NCBI GenBank assembly: GCA_020846655.1
Contig: JADLDL010000245.1
Span: forward strand, 1 to 34,991
Source: Saprospiraceae bacterium
Lineage (GTDB): Bacteria; Bacteroidota; Bacteroidia; Chitinophagales; Saprospiraceae
Length of the DNA: 34,991 nt
Direction: 5' to 3'
Shown: piece after piece, positions 9,503-26,716 of the stretch
Numbering within the stretch: position 1 is the first letter of the stretch
How the letters are laid out: the number at the start of each line of letters is the position of its first letter
Program-made: the position numbers and the translations under genes
Notes under the pieces: model-generated
The model's database searches: none
Told to the model about the DNA's origin: nothing
Seen by the model: the letters and a program-made list of their open reading frames with translations, nothing else

Positions 9503-11053
9503 TTAAAATTCACTGGCAATCTGTGCAAGAACAGCTGTCAGTGTGTCCTCCAGATATCGTCGAATATTGGCTTCTTTTCCGGCTCCGTTTGTGTAAGCCG
9601 AAACCACATGCGGCGGAATGCCCAGCGGTAAAACGATGTTGGGAGTATCTTCTTCATGTTCCCCCTTGTGTTCTAAAAAAACGCCTATTGCCAATGCGCC
9701 ATCTTCATACCCAAAGTGGTGAATGGTAAAACCTATGTGGTATTTTTTCTCCGCAGAAAAGTCAAACCCAAGAATCAACCACGCTTTAGGCAAATTCCGG
9801 TTGAAGAAGTAGTTATGCTTTTGCGCATAGGTAATAATTTGGTTGAAATAAAAATCTTGGCGTGGCCGCTGTGTGGGTTGGAACACCTCTCTATCGTCAA
9901 ACGAACATTTTTTGAGGTAAATGCCCGCATCTTTCCCGTATTTCTTTTTCAGGTTTTGTTCTACTTCTTGCAAATAGGTATGACAAACAGAGAATATCTT
10001 CCTTCTCCCAATGGATAGTTGTTCTTCTTTTTGTTGCAGAATACTCTGTTTATGTTCCCGAATTTTCTCTAACAACGCATTTTGAACAACCTCAAAAGAG
10101 GATGTCGGAGAAACCTCCTGCACATTTAGCGCTTCCTGAATATTTCTTTTTTGTATTTCCCCAAGATAGTTTACAAATGGTTGAACATCTCCGGCATCTG
10201 CCTTTTCAAGTGCCTCGATGTACCTGGATTTAGCCTCTTCCCGAAGTACTGTCAAAGGGAAAAAACCCTCTTTGACCAAAATAAGACTGGCAAGGAGGCG
10301 CACCACCCGGCCGTTTCCATCTTGAAAAGGATGAATGGCAGTGAAAGCGTGGTGTACCCAGGCTGCTACAATTAGTGGATGAACGCCTTCTTCTCTGAGT
10401 TGGTTGAAAATGGCGATAAGATTGTCCATTTCAGCATCAACATGATCCGGAGGGCAATAGTAAATCTTGACGCCATCGGGCCGTGTTGGGTTATTCTCCG
10501 TTTTTTTAAACTCCCCTTTTAGTAACCTGATTTTCAACTTCCGGCCTTCTGCATCCCGTCCTTCCGCAGTATCCTGATGTCGGGTGACCAGTTGATGCAG
10601 TTGCTTGATCATAGAAACTGAAAACGGGCGATCCTCCTTGATAATATCAAATACCCAATTTACAGCTTCCAGATGATCATTTAGATGTTGCATCAGCGTC
10701 TTGGGGTCTATGTTCGTATCATTATGGCTTAGCAAAGAACCCTTAAATCCTTCCTGGACAAATATTTCGGTCATCCCCGTACTCAAATCATACATCCTTT
10801 CGACGATCCCCGTTTCAATGGCGTGTCGCCGTTTTAATTGCTCCATAAACTCTTTGAACTCAACAGAACTCCCCTGCAATTTTTGACGCCGTATGAACCA
10901 CGATTCAGCAATATCATCTAAAACGGAGGTATCGCAATTCCGCCAGTTTGCAGTAAATGCAATATGCTTCCAGATGCGGAGCTCTTTTGATGCTTCGCCT
11001 TCTGCCGCAACGGATGCCGTGGGGTCTGGAGTGAAATCATCCTGGTCTTGCAT
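9503..11053 (-). CDS. Fic-family protein (probable AMP-transferase)
   Basis: A 516-aa protein with an intact Fic active-site motif HPFQDGNGR (about residues 239-247; consensus HPFxDGNGR), which binds the nucleotide and transfers AMP or a related group to a target hydroxyl. Residues just before it (VAAWVHHAFTAI) also fit. The N-terminal helical region contains AIETGIVERMYDLSTG, in the place where many Fic proteins hold an inhibitory helix, but I see no clean (S/T)xxxE(G/N) motif. The C-terminal ~200 residues are of unknown fold. The gene starts 33 bp after the ileS stop. Its DNA is clearly AT-richer than ileS and ftsK around it, which suggests recent acquisition. The substrate is unknown, and no small antitoxin gene is adjacent. 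Confidence 0.88.
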   Translation of the reverse strand: MQDQDDFTPDPTASVAAEGEASKELRIWKHIAFTANWRNCDTSVLDDIAESWFIRRQKLQGSSVEFKEFMEQLKRRHAIETGIVERMYDLSTGMTEIFVQEGFKGSLLSHNDTNIDPKTLMQHLNDHLEAVNWVFDIIKEDRPFSVSMIKQLHQLVTRHQDTAEGRDAEGRKLKIRLLKGEFKKTENNPTRPDGVKIYYCPPDHVDAEMDNLIAIFNQLREEGVHPLIVAAWVHHAFTAIHPFQDGNGRVVRLLASLILVKEGFFPLTVLREEAKSRYIEALEKADAGDVQPFVNYLGEIQKRNIQEALNVQEVSPTSSFEVVQNALLEKIREHKQSILQQKEEQLSIGRRKIFSVCHTYLQEVEQNLKKKYGKDAGIYLKKCSFDDREVFQPTQRPRQDFYFNQIITYAQKHNYFFNRNLPKAWLILGFDFSAEKKYHIGFTIHHFGYEDGALAIGVFLEHKGEHEEDTPNIVLPLGIPPHVVSAYTNGAGKEANIRRYLEDTLTAVLAQIASEF

Positions 11054-11086: not shown

Positions 11087-14000
11087 TCACATCACCACCA
11101 CCTCGATCCCCAGACTAATCTCGTCGTTCAAGTCCACTTTTTCGCCGGCCATTGTATCAGCCAACACCAGGTCGGTGGCCAGGGTTTCGCCCTTGATGTA
11201 CTCGCGAAACTGAGCCACGGCCGGCAAAATAGCCGGGTGTTTTTCCAGGGTGATGACCACGCGGTCGGTGACACTGAAATCCTGTTCCTTGCGGATGTTC
11301 TGGATGCGGTTCACCAGGTCACGGGCCAGGCCTTCGGCCAACAGTTCGTCGCTCAGGTGCACGTCGAGGGCTACCGTGAGTGCGCCGTCGGAAGCCGTTT
11401 TCCAGCCCGGCAGGTCTTCCGTGGTCACGATCAGATCCTCCGGCGTGAGCGTGTAGTCCGTGCCGTTGAGGTGGAGCGCCAGCGCTCCGCTTTGTTCCAG
11501 GGCGGCAATTTGTGCGTTGTCAAAGGTTGCAATTTGTGCGGCGGCGTCTTTCATGTCCTTGCCGAGTTTGGCGCCCAGGGTTTTGAAATTGGCCTTGGCT
11601 GATTTGATGAGCAGCCCGCTCGCATCGGTGATGTATTCCAGTTCTTTCACGTTGATCTCAGCGAGAATCAGCGCTTTTACCGCTTCCACTTCCGCCTGAA
11701 AAGAGGCGTCGAGCACCGGTAGCAGCAGTTTTTGCAGCGGCAGGCGCACGCGGATTTTTTCCTTTTTCCGGATGCTGAGCGCCAGCGAACAGATGCGCTG
11801 CGCGTAGTCCATGCGTTTTTCCAAGGCCTTGTCCACCTTTGCGGGGTCGGGCTTCGTAAGGTCGGTGAGGTGCACAGAATCGTGGCGCAGCGGCGTGTTG
11901 TTGGCTTTGGCGGTGTCCTTGATCGGGGCCGTCAGGTTGCGGTAGAGCCAGTCGGAGAAAAACGGCGCGACGGGGGCGGAGAGCTGGCCCACCACCATCA
12001 AGCACTCAAAAAGCGTTTCGTAGGCCGATTGCTTGTCTTGGCCTAACCCCACCCCCGGCCCCTCCCCCCCAGGGAGGGGAGAAGATTTCCAGAAGCGGCG
12101 GCGGCTCAGGCGCACGAACCAGTTGGACAAATGCTCGTCGACAAATTCCTCAATCGCCCGGCAAGCCTTGGTGGGCTCGTAGTCGTCGAAGGCTTCGTGT
12201 ACTTCGGCGACGAGGCTGTAGAGTTTGGAAATGACCCAGCGGTCCAGTTCGGGGCGGCGCTCGTAGGGTAGTACCTTGGACTCGTTCATCCGGAAGCCGT
12301 CGAGGTTGGCGTAGAGGGCGAAGAAGTTGTAGGTATTGAAGAGCGTCCCGAAAAATTTGTTCCGGCTTTCCACGATCCCGGCGGCGTCAAACTTGAGGTT
12401 TTCCCAGGGCGCGGCGTTGCTGATCATGTACCAGCGGGTGGCATCGGCGCCGTGGGTGTCGAGGGTTTCGAAGGGATCAACAGCGTTGCCCAGGCGTTTG
12501 GACATCTTGTTGCCGTTTTTATCGAGCACCAGGCCGTTGGACACCACGTTTTTGTAGGCCACCGAATCGAAACACATGACGGCGATGGCGTGCAGGGTGT
12601 AAAACCAGCCCCGGGTTTGGTCGACGCCCTCGGCGATAAAATCGGCCGGGTAGTTGCGTTTCCACTGCTCCTGGTTTTCGAAGGGGTAGTGCCATTGGGC
12701 ATAGGGCATGGCGCCGGAGTCGAACCACACGTCGATGAGGTCGGCTTCGCGCTGCATCGGCCGGCCGCTGGGCGATACAAGTACAATGCGGTCGATGTAC
12801 GGGCGGTGGAGGTCAACCCCACCCCCAGCCCCTCCCCCCAGGGGGAGGGGGGCCTCTTTGTGGCTTACGGTTTGTTTTCGTTGAGCGATAGCCAATTTGA
12901 TGTCGTCGAGTACTTTTTGAGTACGGTTCAGGACATCGGAATTACTGAAGCGAATGACTTCAAATCCTGCGAGGTTCAACAACTCCGTTCGCAGTGCATC
13001 ATATTCAGGTTGCACATCGTGGATGGAGCCATCTACTTCGATCACGAGGCGTAGTTCCAGGCTCACAAAATCGGCTATGTACTCCTCAATTGTATGTTGC
13101 CTTCTGAATTTGACATCCTCTATTTTTTTGTCGCGTAAGGCTTCCCACAAAACAGCCTCGGCCTCCGTAGGATTTTTCCGATTTGCTTGAGCAAATTCTT
13201 TTAAATACTTCCATCGTTCGGCGTCTGTTTTATAGACCCTGCGGGAATAGCCCGTCGCGGCGATTGACCCCACCCCCAGCCCCTCCCCAGGAGGGGAGGG
13301 GAGCATTGGAGTCGCTGGTGCGACTCCCCTCCCCCCCAGGGGAGGGGCCGGGGGTGGGGTCAACGGATTTTCCGCCATCAACCCTGCCGCTACGGCCTTG
13401 TCCACCTCCCGGCTCAGGTCTGCCACCGAGGCGATACAAATTTCCTCCTCGCCATCTTCTGTACGCCAGATAGGCAGCGGTATGCCCCAAAACCGCGAGC
13501 GGCTGAGGTTCCAGTCTTGCAGGTTTTCCAGCCACACGCCGAAACGGCCGGTGCCGGTGGAAGCCGGTTTCCAGTTGATGGTTTTGTTCAGTTCGGCCAT
13601 GCGCTCTTTGGCTGCCGAGGCGCGGATAAACCACGAATCCATCGGGTAGTAGAGCACCGGCTTGTCAGTCCGCCAGCAGTGGGGGTAGTTGTGTTTGTAT
13701 TTTTCAATTTTAAACGCCTTGTTGTCGTCCTTGAGTTTCAGGGCGATCAGCAGGTCAGTGGGTTTGAATTCTTTGTCTTGCTGTACTTCCACGGAATAGT
13801 ACTCGGCTTTGACGTAGCGGCCGGCAAAGTCCGTGACTTCGGGCAGGAAACGACCCTGCTTGTCGACCAGCGGGAAGGGTTGCCGGGGGTCTTTTTCGTT
13901 GGGTGCGCCGATCATGGGCACCCCATGCTCGCGGGCGGCGCGCATGTCGTCGGCGCCGAAGTAGGGCGCCGTGTGTACCACTCCGGTGCCGTCTTCGGTG

Positions 14001-15055
14001 GTAACCCAATCGCCGGGGATGACGCGGAAGCCCTGCTCTTCGAGTTCGGGCGAGCTAACGTAGGGCAGTAGTTGTTCAAAATGCAGGCCCACCAACTGGC
14101 TGCCGCTAAGGGTTTGCTCCACCCGGAAGGGGATATTTTTATCGCCCGGCTGGTAAGCCTCGAAGGGCAATTCGGCGTTTTCCGAAGGAAAATAGGCCGG
14201 CACGCGCTCTTGCGCGAGGATCAGGCTAACCGGCGCACCGGTGTAGGGACTGAAGGTGCGGACTTTTGCGTAGCGGATGTTGGGGCCCACGGTGAGCGCC
14301 ACGTTGCTGGGCAGGGTCCAGGGCGTGGTGGTCCAGGCGAGGATGCGCAGGTCTTCTCCGGGCTGCTCGAACAAAAACGCGGAGGCCGCCTCGTGTTTCA
14401 CCTTGAACATGGCCACCACCGAAATATCCGTCACCTCGCGGTAGCAACCGGGCTGGTTGAGTTCGTGGGTGCTGAGGCCGGTGCCGGCGGCCGGGCTGTA
14501 GGGTTGGATGGTGAAACCTTTGTAGAGGTAGGATTCGCCGGCTGCGGTTTTTTTGTCGTACAACTGCCGCAGGAGCCACCAGCAGGATTCGATGTAGTCG
14601 TTTTCAAAGGTGATGTAGGGCTTCTCCAGGTCGACCCAATAGCCCATTTTGCGGGTGAGTTCGTCCCACAGGTCTTTGTAGCGCATCACCGTGGCGCGGC
14701 AGGCAGCGTTATATTCCTCGACCGTTATTTTTTTGCCGATATCCTCTTTCGTGATGCCCAGTTCTTTTTCCACGCTCAGTTCGATGGGCAGGCCGTGGGT
14801 ATCCCAGCCGCCTTTGCGTTCCACGCGGTGCCCCTTGAGGGTTTGATAGCGGCCGAAAATATCTTTCACGGCGCGGGCCATCACGTGGTGGATGCCGGGC
14901 TGGCCGTTGGCCGAGGGCGGGCCTTCGTAAAACACAAAGGAGTGGGCCGGGTCGCGTTGCTCAACGGATCGTTCAAATATCTTTTCATCTGCCCAAAATT
15001 GCAGGATTTCAGCATCGATGGCGGGCAGGTTCAGGTGTTTGAATTCGCGGTACAT
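11087..15055 (-). CDS. ileS: Isoleucyl-tRNA synthetase with in-frame DUF559 nuclease insertion
   Basis: Charges tRNA-Ile with isoleucine and edits mischarged Val. Class I motifs are present: the HIGH variant GIHHVM at residues 54-59, WFDSG near 776, and NKMSKRLGNAVDP near 850. The editing region (TTPWTLPSN) and the anticodon-binding C-terminus are also present. At 1322 aa it is about 180 aa longer than relatives. The excess is residues ~565-746, between AENPL and DLHRPYID, a point where relatives carry only a short loop. It encodes Pro/Gly-rich peptides flanking a DUF559 endonuclease domain. A second extra peptide (about 990-1004, SSPLPGGEGPGVGLG) derives from another copy of the same DNA repeat. 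The frame stays open across both and the enzyme is essential, so it is presumably functional. An octamer repeat lies directly upstream of the ATG. Confidence 0.95.
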   Translation of the reverse strand: MYREFKHLNLPAIDAEILQFWADEKIFERSVEQRDPAHSFVFYEGPPSANGQPGIHHVMARAVKDIFGRYQTLKGHRVERKGGWDTHGLPIELSVEKELGITKEDIGKKITVEEYNAACRATVMRYKDLWDELTRKMGYWVDLEKPYITFENDYIESCWWLLRQLYDKKTAAGESYLYKGFTIQPYSPAAGTGLSTHELNQPGCYREVTDISVVAMFKVKHEAASAFLFEQPGEDLRILAWTTTPWTLPSNVALTVGPNIRYAKVRTFSPYTGAPVSLILAQERVPAYFPSENAELPFEAYQPGDKNIPFRVEQTLSGSQLVGLHFEQLLPYVSSPELEEQGFRVIPGDWVTTEDGTGVVHTAPYFGADDMRAAREHGVPMIGAPNEKDPRQPFPLVDKQGRFLPEVTDFAGRYVKAEYYSVEVQQDKEFKPTDLLIALKLKDDNKAFKIEKYKHNYPHCWRTDKPVLYYPMDSWFIRASAAKERMAELNKTINWKPASTGTGRFGVWLENLQDWNLSRSRFWGIPLPIWRTEDGEEEICIASVADLSREVDKAVAAGLMAENPLTPPPAPPLGGRGVAPATPMLPSPPGEGLGVGSIAATGYSRRVYKTDAERWKYLKEFAQANRKNPTEAEAVLWEALRDKKIEDVKFRRQHTIEEYIADFVSLELRLVIEVDGSIHDVQPEYDALRTELLNLAGFEVIRFSNSDVLNRTQKVLDDIKLAIAQRKQTVSHKEAPLPLGGGAGGGVDLHRPYIDRIVLVSPSGRPMQREADLIDVWFDSGAMPYAQWHYPFENQEQWKRNYPADFIAEGVDQTRGWFYTLHAIAVMCFDSVAYKNVVSNGLVLDKNGNKMSKRLGNAVDPFETLDTHGADATRWYMISNAAPWENLKFDAAGIVESRNKFFGTLFNTYNFFALYANLDGFRMNESKVLPYERRPELDRWVISKLYSLVAEVHEAFDDYEPTKACRAIEEFVDEHLSNWFVRLSRRRFWKSSPLPGGEGPGVGLGQDKQSAYETLFECLMVVGQLSAPVAPFFSDWLYRNLTAPIKDTAKANNTPLRHDSVHLTDLTKPDPAKVDKALEKRMDYAQRICSLALSIRKKEKIRVRLPLQKLLLPVLDASFQAEVEAVKALILAEINVKELEYITDASGLLIKSAKANFKTLGAKLGKDMKDAAAQIATFDNAQIAALEQSGALALHLNGTDYTLTPEDLIVTTEDLPGWKTASDGALTVALDVHLSDELLAEGLARDLVNRIQNIRKEQDFSVTDRVVITLEKHPAILPAVAQFREYIKGETLATDLVLADTMAGEKVDLNDEISLGIEVVVM
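12046..12080. repeat. GC-rich palindromic repeat translated inside ileS (no cargo)
   Basis: The plus strand carries the core ACCCCACCCCCGGCCCC, then CTCCCC and AGGGAGGGG, which pair into a hairpin. It is translated in frame as a Pro/Gly-rich peptide in the anticodon-binding half of IleRS. It is the same family as the repeats that bound the DUF559 insertion 0.8-1.3 kb away. Confidence 0.85.
12816..12852. repeat. GC-rich palindromic repeat, left boundary of the DUF559 cassette
   Basis: ACCCCACCCCCAGCCCC followed by TCCCCCC-AGGGGGA-GGGGGG on the plus strand. It forms a hairpin and is translated on the minus strand as APLPLGGGAGGG. The core matches the copies at 12046, 13267 and 13326. Confidence 0.9.
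13267..13360. repeat. Head-to-head pair of GC-rich palindromic repeats, right boundary of the cassette
   Basis: Two copies lie face to face: 13267-13301 in plus orientation (ACCCCACCCCCAGCCCC...) and 13326-13360 in minus orientation (...GGCCGGGGGTGGGGT). Between them is a spacer that is itself palindromic in part (AGTCGC-TGGT-GCGACT). Both are translated in ileS as Pro/Gly-rich stretches (TPPPAPPLGGRG and PSPPGEGLGVG). Confidence 0.9.
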
Positions 15056-26500: not shown

Positions 26501-26716
26501 GCGGGTCAGGGGGTTAAGGGGTTTGAACGTAGCGCCAGACAAACCGAATGGGTTGCGCGTTTGCGGAACGGCCGATTGGCCAGGCCAGCCACGGAGTGTG
26601 AGGCGTTCGGGAGCAGGCGAAGGGCCGGGGGCGGGAGGATGGGTTTTGGCACTTTGTGCCGTAGCCAGGTTGAGGCTGCACACAGCGCATACCATCCAGA
26701 AGAGGATTCTTTTCAT
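23561..26716 (-). CDS. Secreted M4 (thermolysin-like) metalloprotease with T9SS sorting domain
   Basis: A 1051-aa extracellular zinc protease. A signal peptide (1-20, ending ATAQ) is followed by a propeptide with FTP/PepSY character (WQVIIYPNLLRREVYFVDAQSG). The M4 catalytic domain carries HEMTH at residues 472-476 and the third ligand in GALNESFADVF. PNHVSEKYTGNQDNGGVHINSGIPNRAFYLFA holds the M4 active-site His block (split here: NQDNGGVHINSG). After the protease come repeated blades like a TolB/WD40 propeller (DGTKVAFVNTEG, DGRYLAALTS, NTLIFDRVSG), then a T9SS type A domain (AAPNPATETVQISF ... GTYALRVQAGG). I chose the ATG at 26716 because it starts the signal peptide; upstream ATGs are open but unsupported. 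Confidence 0.93.
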   Translation of the reverse strand: MKRILFWMVCAVCSLNLATAQSAKTHPPAPGPSPAPERLTLRGWPGQSAVPQTRNPFGLSGATFKPLNPLTRSANPDGGYETVNGEQGLPIFFQGKTAASLSADANRPVGARALDYLASLEPDGLTAPAAEFMVKRVDTDEQGEQHVHLEQQFQGVPVYGGELIAHTKNGAFSLLNGRYYPTPQLATTVPAMDAAAAIQAAVQAIGADRVKTNWSAEERLLVGGAESTTELVVYHANRQLSAERLAWQVIIYPNLLRREVYFVDAQSGAIIHHYDHTCEILPLSGKARHDMPHELPGEHTDAPAPVLAPALLDGPVPASGLDLLNQNRSFGAWLVGSTVVMEDASKQMFNSGASQMPSDPVGVVVTLNALNTSPEIQSTFDYDFVTSATTTFNNKNAVSTHWNAVQSYDYFLSKHTRNSIDGVGGNIISFFNVSESNGTSMENAYWNGAAMWYGNGGSTFYELARGIDVGGHEMTHGVIEKTANLEYQDESGALNESFADVFAVFIDPADWKIGEDVVKPGATTNNCLRDMQDPHKSDPAQPNHVSEKYTGNQDNGGVHINSGIPNRAFYLFASNAAVGIAKAEKVYYKALRDYLVKSSQFIDCRLAVIQAANDLYGGTVANAAADAFTTVGIVGSQGGNYLGELSVNPGTEYIVCVTEDLSKLDITNSNGQVLKTLYTEGVASRPSVSDDGTKVAFVNTEGHIVGIDILYDGSAIVSQATILSDFAEWRSVAISKDGRYLAALTSVQQNRIHVYDLNDVFLTKHTFFLYNPTYSTGQITGEVQYADVLDFDYTGEYIMYDAYNDLSNDNGEDLSYWDIGFLRFLENGQIVDGANAFISKLFSGLPEKTGVADPSFAKKSPYVIALDVIDDLNNTRDILGANTETGDADFIVKDNGVLGWPSFNKQDNTLIFDRVSGSVTNVYKRGLAANKITGQGAVSQFIPSRNWGAWLANGVRSLLVDADEPAAERLQLRAAPNPATETVQISFAAPQSGPVRLVLSDLLGKTLLSRDWELPAGNNQLDLNLQGLPSGTYALRVQAGGTGATLKISKL

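Follow-up and report, generated by a model that had tools for sequence, protein, structure and literature searches.

A DUF559 nuclease cassette in frame within isoleucyl-tRNA synthetase, and its relatives in conserved protein genes of Bacteroidota

How does a complete nuclease domain come to lie in the middle of an essential aminoacyl-tRNA synthetase, and how is it kept there? The question is raised by a stretch of 34,991 nucleotides (the window), which is the whole of contig C245 (JADLDL010000245.1) of a Saprospiraceae bacterium assembly (GCA_020846655.1, here G000; 6.4 Mb, 96.7% complete, 398 contigs). A first-pass annotation, made from the letters alone, had described in it a gene for isoleucyl-tRNA synthetase (IleRS), ileS, open for 1322 codons with a foreign block after AENPL and before DLHRPYID, and had proposed that a nuclease cassette entered this essential gene and kept its frame. 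We put at roughly 0.7 the probability that this block belongs to a family of mobile elements which reside unspliced in protein genes of Bacteroidota and spread in a homing-like manner. Mobility over evolutionary time is well supported by the observations below, and so is, at the level of sequence, the lack of a recognisable splicing domain. The insert appears to remain unspliced, judging from the absence of any recognised splicing domain, and we infer that the homing is driven by the nuclease.

The block proved to be as described (Table 1). It corresponds to residues 566–747 of IleRS, directly between the two host motifs, and its length is divisible by three. Pfam finds tRNA-synt_1, DUF559, Anticodon_1 and DUF5915 in the fused protein; the DUF559 domain (PF04480, residues 617–723) is complete, as had been annotated, with an E-value of 4.2e-34 and 117.1 bits against a curated cut-off of 20.6. 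The GC-rich palindromes with Pro/Gly translations that had been noticed at the block edges are also real: the outer ends, 12816–12850 and 13326–13360, are 89% complementary over 35 nt, and the N-side border is a compound inverted pair (13264–13303/13324–13363) with 40-nt arms at 93%. This pair, ~94 bp long, resembles a mini-element, and a similar make is seen in the congeneric genome G006. In the protein, the insert starts with TPPP and ends with GGGV, followed by the host D, the borders being Pro/Gly repeats. With up to three mismatches allowed, the window holds five copies of the palindrome motif where 0.29 would be expected. Four of them are exact, all within ileS; the fifth, at 26617, has three mismatches and may be due to chance. 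One of the four exact copies is a small palindrome that the first-pass annotation had not mentioned; it stands alone in the same gene, in frame and ~735 bp further along than the cassette, and a congener (locus L071) has RRRFWKGQLNEDK at its position.

Table 1. Positions of the cassette, its palindromes and the host gene in the window
Feature	Position	Strand	Remarks
ileS, isoleucyl-tRNA synthetase, host gene	11087..15055	-	1322 codons, stop-free; Pfam
Entire insert	12815..13360	-	546 bp = 182 codons in frame; inverted ends AACCCCACCCC...GGGGTGGGGT
DUF559 nuclease domain, PD-(D/E)XK/Vsr-like	12887..13207	-	six putative active-site residues present; model pLDDT (predicted local distance difference test) 85.8
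Terminal palindrome, C-terminal border	12816..12853	+	translation PLPLGGGAGGGV
Terminal palindrome, N-terminal border	13326..13360	-	translation TPPPAPPLGGRG; inverted to 12816-12850
Third palindrome copy	13267..13304	+	direct to 12816-12853, 87%
Solo palindrome insertion, same ileS, without nuclease	12045..12079	+	translation SSPLPGGEGPGVGLG

The insertion site may be a surface loop, as the annotation held, given the length variability of the site among congeners. The AlphaFold model of IleRS residues 1–989 is poor (mean pLDDT 57.8, predicted template modelling score 0.38), better over the DUF559 stretch (block means 61–88) and below 50 in the stretches on either side of it, and for this reason we make no claim on the surface position of the insert.

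Is the fused synthetase the one that the cell uses? Among nine synthetase matches in G000 the window's ileS is the sole full-length one, and the others, among the matches listed, are weak (E 1e-11 or worse); a second intact ileS, which would make the occupied frame a candidate pseudogene, was not found in this assembly. DUF559 occurs only once in G000 at E ≤0.001, as the window's copy, so that numerous copies within the source genome are rejected. The suggestion that other host genes would carry DUF559 between the same palindromes accordingly fails for G000 itself and holds strongly for its congeners and across the phylum. The palindromes alone are more widespread in G000, where 22 matches at ≤1 mismatch, the four of the window included, compare with a single one for the reversed pattern; nuclease-less copies lie in frame in an EPSP synthase, an FG-GAP protein, a methylmalonyl-CoA mutase and a frame that matches MMPL. 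At three loci of this genome (L011, L018 and L028, on contigs C252, C59 and C79) a different repeat, approximately ILDIR.SIFDI...VE.RISNSEYP..KYQNPE, is interleaved with the palindromes; it is in frame in the methylmalonyl-CoA mutase and in the frame with the MMPL match, and seems to be a second repeat family riding along with the palindrome elements.

Through a comparison of congeneric genomes, in which the ileS site was readable in 40 of 42, it was found that the nuclease cassette is present in nine (G000, G005, G011, G016, G017, G024, G028, G032 and G040), that palindromes alone occupy the site in two (G006 and G007), and that 29 are empty. Most congeners thus lack the domain at this site; the opposite finding would have refuted the proposed entry of a cassette into ileS, which is supported. 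Occupied and empty alleles stand side by side in close relatives (G028/G015, G016/G008, G000/G002, G011 with G010 and G001, G032 and G005 with G023), and palindrome-only G007 is likewise close to empty G019. On an ileS tree built without the insert (40 rows, 1121 columns), cassette presence requires at least seven changes, and the approximately unbiased (AU) test rejects one clade for all occupied alleles (p 3e-7). The cassettes themselves tell the same: the nine as one clade are rejected as well (AU p 0.0026), and two kinds can be distinguished, namely type A (three cassettes) plus that of the window, and type B. The former fall in a starred set (97/95) with the helicase (five), MutS and HemD cassettes of congeners, whereas type B forms a starred clade of its own. 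The nearest relative of the window cassette is the helicase cassette of G006, with 59–60% identity. One ancestral ileS insertion inherited vertically is rejected by the ileS tree and these AU tests; there was more than one origin at one ileS site, and cassettes in different host genes are kin. An assembly that bears the name Emticicia agri (L124) likewise has an occupied site at the same place in ileS. In G017 the occupied ileS is accompanied by a partial second ileS without cassette (C614, C185; 74% identity to the window protein), which may stem from contamination, given as 4 for this assembly, or from two genuine copies.

Did the element bring neighbouring DNA with it? Ten occupied/empty pairs were compared at the DNA level, gap-free and from fixed anchors. 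In all ten, the bin 60–90 nt after IWRT, which adjoins the insert, shows an identity of only 0.37–0.53, the preceding bin 0.53–0.77, and the five bins before IWRT 0.67–1.00. The cleanest pairs are G011/G010 and G007/G019, with 0.93–1.00 upstream, 0.40 and 0.37 respectively at the insert, and 1.00 from DLHRP onwards; some pairs are low again 30–60 nt after DLHRP (G016/G008 0.57, G017/G030 0.53). An earlier gapped alignment gave a similar, less clean drop with mixed bins at the insert, worst for G032/G023 and G005/G023. In addition, the loop ends in xNP[YFL] in all 11 occupied or palindrome alleles, and a like loop is found in 3 of the 29 empty ones (Fisher p 1.6e-7). From the replaced flank and the loop association together it follows that the element travelled with its flank, some 60 bp of it. 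This is the pattern expected from homing by break repair, which ordinary recombination could give too.

All 138 copies in long frames keep the six putative active-site residues of the nuclease (the E in TxAE, the D in ADF, the E and the D in IEVDG, an H and an R). The ratio of nonsynonymous to synonymous substitution rates (dN/dS) is 0.07, 0.03 and 0.04 for the domain and 0.02–0.03 for the host part, so that the domain is under purifying selection; these values come from three pairs, since domain dS was saturated in six of nine. A profile of the cassettes matches PDB entries 3HRL (E 1e-34) and 3R3P (E 1.5e-5), the latter being the catalytic domain of the homing endonuclease I-Bth0305I. With the predicted fold (pLDDT 85.8), Foldseek against the PDB returned the same two entries as the sole matches at E ≤0.001 (3E-8 for 3HRL and 6e-4 for 3R3P); mitoribosome proteins come directly below 3R3P, and PvuRts1I and Vsr further down. 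Matches in a viral fold library include DUF559, Vsr and homing endonuclease models among others. By profile and predicted fold, then, the cassette domain is akin to I-Bth0305I, whose EDxHD family and homing mechanism are described in a review (PMC3943268).

Other genes are hosts as well. Within the genus, cassettes lie in frame in MutS (G021), HemD (G041) and an AAA helicase (G006, G025, G031, G036 and G041), in the last case just before the Walker A motif, the G036 copy starting at a contig end. At the family level, IleRS is a host at a different site and MetH at two sites; MnmE, HsdR and a restriction methylase also carry cassettes. For named genomes the best 80 of 576 relatives were taken, and hosts were named by NCBIfam, Pfam and blastp; the loci are the best matches to a profile built mostly from in-frame copies, and the in-frame share among all DUF559 cannot be read from them. 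Altogether 161 domains were examined, of which 138 are in frames of ≥300 aa and 125 match 25 host labels: LeuRS (30), MetH (25), IleRS (15), RecG (7), HsdR (7), helicase (5), MetRS (5), restriction methylase (5), MnmE (4), IcmF (4), PurQ (3), UvrA (2), and one each of HemD, MutS, Ade, AroC, ValRS, MazG, RecJ, LeuB, LeuC, CCA-transferase, CaiB, Acs and carboxynorspermidine synthase. blastp gave no host for 13 of the 138, and a Pfam scan of eight of these named seven: two UvrD helicases, HsdM, two type ISP enzymes and, as neighbours, an N-formylglutamate amidohydrolase (FGase) and an M23 peptidase. The 138 include one duplicate (L165 and L105 are alike), two restriction-methylase rows are weak host matches (57 and 67 bits), and the cases of LeuB, LeuC, carboxynorspermidine synthase, PurQ and FGase are N- or C-terminal neighbours that may not be true insertions; a safer count is the 124 copies with an open frame of >60 aa and a flank of >150 nt on both sides. 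Many unrelated conserved genes are hosts in frame, and isolates are among the carriers (L134, L136, L142, L168, L187, L190), including Cellulophaga baltica, Flavobacterium cucumis and Aequorivita todarodis with the same arrangement. The cassette-bearing leuS was the only leuS matched in 6/6 genomes tested, and the fused enzyme should therefore work. In an even draw over Bacteroidota, 155/395 genomes have a relative at E ≤1e-20, stand-alone genes included. A phage or plasmid vector was rejected as a candidate, as relatives of the window domain (E ≤1e-5) were present in only 3 of 50,697 phage and 37 of 72,556 plasmid records.

Three side observations concern these hosts. Two DUF559 cassettes lie in one MetH in two Flavobacterium assemblies (L169, domains at 421–546 and 835–961; L196, at 65–187 and 485–604). 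The cassette is often found in restriction-modification genes (HsdR, HsdM, type ISP, Eco57I-like), at loci L111, L113, L114, L225, L229, L230 and L236, and L112, L227, L231, L234 and L241. Assemblies with names of Chloroflexi type (L141, L154, L175, L193) hold related DUF559 domains, some of them between similar palindromes.

What, then, are the palindromes? The flanks of 51/124 cassettes are inverted to each other beyond all 124 shuffles, against 9/124 when the partner flank comes from a different host gene. In G006, 24 elements with similar inverted ends lie in 22 loci; one is the helicase cassette and 23 have no nuclease, and full and mini forms thus have like ends. Seventeen of these 23 are in frame, open for ≥60 aa on both sides, and six are not, a proportion valid for a sample of sites with two opposite palindromes close together. 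Recognised hosts account for 12 of the 17; the other five have no Pfam match, and an open frame alone is no proof of a gene. These hosts are two glycosyltransferase-1-type proteins, a family-2 glycosyltransferase, two UvrA-like proteins, a KDO transferase, 4-alpha-glucanotransferase, methylmalonyl-CoA mutase, IcmF, IleRS and a helicase that holds two. The mini-element in IcmF occupies the same site as nuclease cassettes in other Bacteroidota (L123, L190, L217). Among 13 genomes, the mutase loop has an insert in four (G000, G006, G025, G041), reads as empty in four (G002, G015, G028, G031) and was unmatched by the pattern in five. Of the ten congeners that hold a type-A cassette, in whatever host, nine have palindromes, against 6 of the 32 that hold none (Fisher p 9e-5). 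In three isolates, one palindrome pattern was matched 14 times in F. cucumis (control 3), 55 times in A. todarodis (control 21) and twice in C. baltica (control 1); given the last figure, the pattern is not general.

We propose the following course of events. The full element would consist of GC-rich, stop-free inverted hairpin ends, read as Pro/Gly linkers, around a DUF559 nuclease, which the host would translate as an internal domain of its own protein. The nuclease may nick or cut either the allele that lacks the element or the hairpin ends. Repair templated by the occupied copy would then install the element plus some flank, as homing at allelic sites; rarer ectopic events or transposition would open new sites in new genes. 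Loss of the nuclease part would leave mini-elements that are non-autonomous, in the manner of miniature inverted-repeat transposable elements (MITEs), and perhaps moved in trans. Residence in essential genes would shield the element from loss, and hairpins that are stop-free and read as flexible Pro/Gly linkers would make the insertion survivable.

A number of findings weigh against this proposal. Inverted ends do not exceed shuffles in 73/124 cassettes, and type-B ileS cassettes have, by eye, C-side palindromes only. On independent pairs the palindrome–nuclease association gives p 0.25, from four pairs only. Inspection of the methylmalonyl-CoA mutase site by eye showed no clear target-site duplication, and at ileS the flank is replaced. 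That replacement would also fit ordinary homologous recombination free of any nuclease, and the loop varies naturally. The cassette of the window may have its origin in common with those of type A in ileS, as a single clade for them is not rejected (p 0.28). Stand-alone DUF559 genes are common. The domains of one host gene group closely together (52 changes, compared with 115.6 when shuffled), so that much of the cassette history is vertical or allelic. The cassette domain has no separate DNA-binding module, unlike I-Bth0305I, and for one DUF559 protein, Caulobacter VsrA, a mismatch-repair role is predicted and a genetic link to DNA damage is described (PMC12907096).

Could the palindromes alone be mobile, like those of Rickettsia, moved by an unrelated enzyme, with DUF559 as a captured passenger that has a cellular role? 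The surplus of nuclease-less copies over the nuclease copy in G006, often in frame, their presence in G000, the six congeners of 32 that have palindromes without a type-A cassette, and the missing N-side palindrome of type B would all suit this. A passenger, however, would hardly recur in frame in ~25 host families, with inverted ends detectable in 51/124, keep its putative active-site residues in 138/138 copies and have its fold in common with a homing endonuclease; nor was the other enzyme seen in the form of a Y1/RAYT transposase in G000, where Y1_Tnp (PF01797) gave 0 matches while a control search was positive in 5 of 14 genomes. We consider a passive role of this kind unlikely. Less probable again is a DUF559 accessory domain useful to the host in repair, defence or regulation, rarely inserted and then spread or replaced at fixed sites by homologous recombination. 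The functionally unrelated hosts, the several sites within MetH, LeuRS and IleRS, the 29/40 congeners with an empty ileS site and the palindrome-only forms at the same sites all speak against such a domain, even though strong purifying selection, the clustering by host gene, the replaced tracts that include flank, and the involvement of a VsrA-type DUF559 protein in DNA damage biology (PMC12907096) would be natural for it.

An atypical intein, removed after translation, would share the patchy distribution and the in-frame position within essential, conserved genes; yet the Pfam matches of the window protein and of 17 other frames include no Hint or intein domain, Pro/Gly repeats form the borders (TPPP... 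at the start, ...GGGV before the host D), and the MITE-like forms have the same ends as the cassettes. We reject the intein as a candidate and hold it to be very improbable. An assembly or gene-calling artefact, or a pseudogene, could be thought of in view of the fragmented assembly; we give it next to no weight, as the 1322-codon frame is stop-free, the same site is occupied in nine species, isolates show the same arrangement, dN/dS is low, and occupied ileS or leuS genes are sole copies.

The gene downstream of ileS (9503–11053, minus strand) contains HPFQDGNGR, a candidate Fic motif.

If the homing-like reading is true, essential proteins can harbour a homing element for long periods with no splicing machinery, given ends that encode tolerable linkers, and coding MITEs gain a candidate autonomous partner. 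The long-standing question of how selfish DNA enters the middle of conserved proteins could then be put to the test in Bacteroidota that are in culture, for example Cellulophaga baltica (LeuRS) and Flavobacterium cucumis (MetH). For annotation, an unusually long LeuRS, IleRS, MetRS or MetH with DUF559 need be neither a functional fusion nor an error, and natural insertion-tolerant sites would be offered in many enzymes.

How does the element compare with known systems? The Rickettsia palindromic elements measure 105–146 bp and lie in 19 protein genes, with no mention of a nuclease, and in-frame fusions are told for enterobacterial MITEs too (PMC2229807). Like these coding MITEs, the present elements are short with inverted ends, stop-free, in frame in conserved genes and apparently tolerated; unlike the Rickettsia elements as described, they include a nuclease-coding full form with like ends and are Bacteroidota-wide. 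Inverted ends, in-frame position and dispersal are thus found here as in coding MITEs, with ends above shuffles in 51/124 cassettes only; short and enzyme-free are the mini forms, whereas the full form contains DUF559. I-Bth0305I is a multi-domain enzyme with a target near 60 bp that comes from a mobile intron (PMC3943268; structure 3R3P). The related catalytic fold, the patchy alleles and the replaced flank are shared with it and other EDxHD Vsr-like homing endonucleases; the co-converted flank has ordinary recombination as another possible cause. Unlike I-Bth0305I, the present element has neither an intron nor an additional DNA-binding domain, and its nuclease is internal to the host protein.

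The nearest precedent for an unspliced homing insertion is the ShiLan domain in a phage DNA methylase, which is thought to be retained in the protein; it contains an HNH nuclease read in another frame, and several similar cases are noted in other phages and in prokaryotes (PMC11855218). Both are homing-type insertions in a coding frame with no splicing domain detected. In the present element the nuclease is in the host frame, belongs to another family and occurs in many bacterial housekeeping genes, unlike what is told of ShiLan, and the string 'palindrom' is absent from the ShiLan text (PMC11855218). Inteins with homing endonucleases share with our element the in-frame position, the conserved essential genes and the sporadic distribution, whereas here no splicing domain is found and the host protein seems to retain the insert. 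Repetitive extragenic palindromic (REP) elements are dispersed palindromes served by REP-associated tyrosine (RAYT, Y1) transposases. Dispersed palindromes served by a nuclease or transposase would be common to both systems; in contrast to REP/RAYT, there is no Y1_Tnp in G000, for which reason mobilisation of that type was rejected, and a DUF559 enzyme lies between the palindromes inside genes. No description of the present element was found in open-access titles and the starts of abstracts, subscription papers and most preprints being outside that scope. The element joins two known kinds, and the chances are about even that it deserves a class of its own: an autonomous unspliced element with an in-frame homing-type nuclease and stop-free hairpin ends, which would have conserved single-copy genes throughout the phylum as its safe harbours, move both between alleles and between genes, and feed an in-frame swarm of MITEs that adds linker peptides to host proteins.

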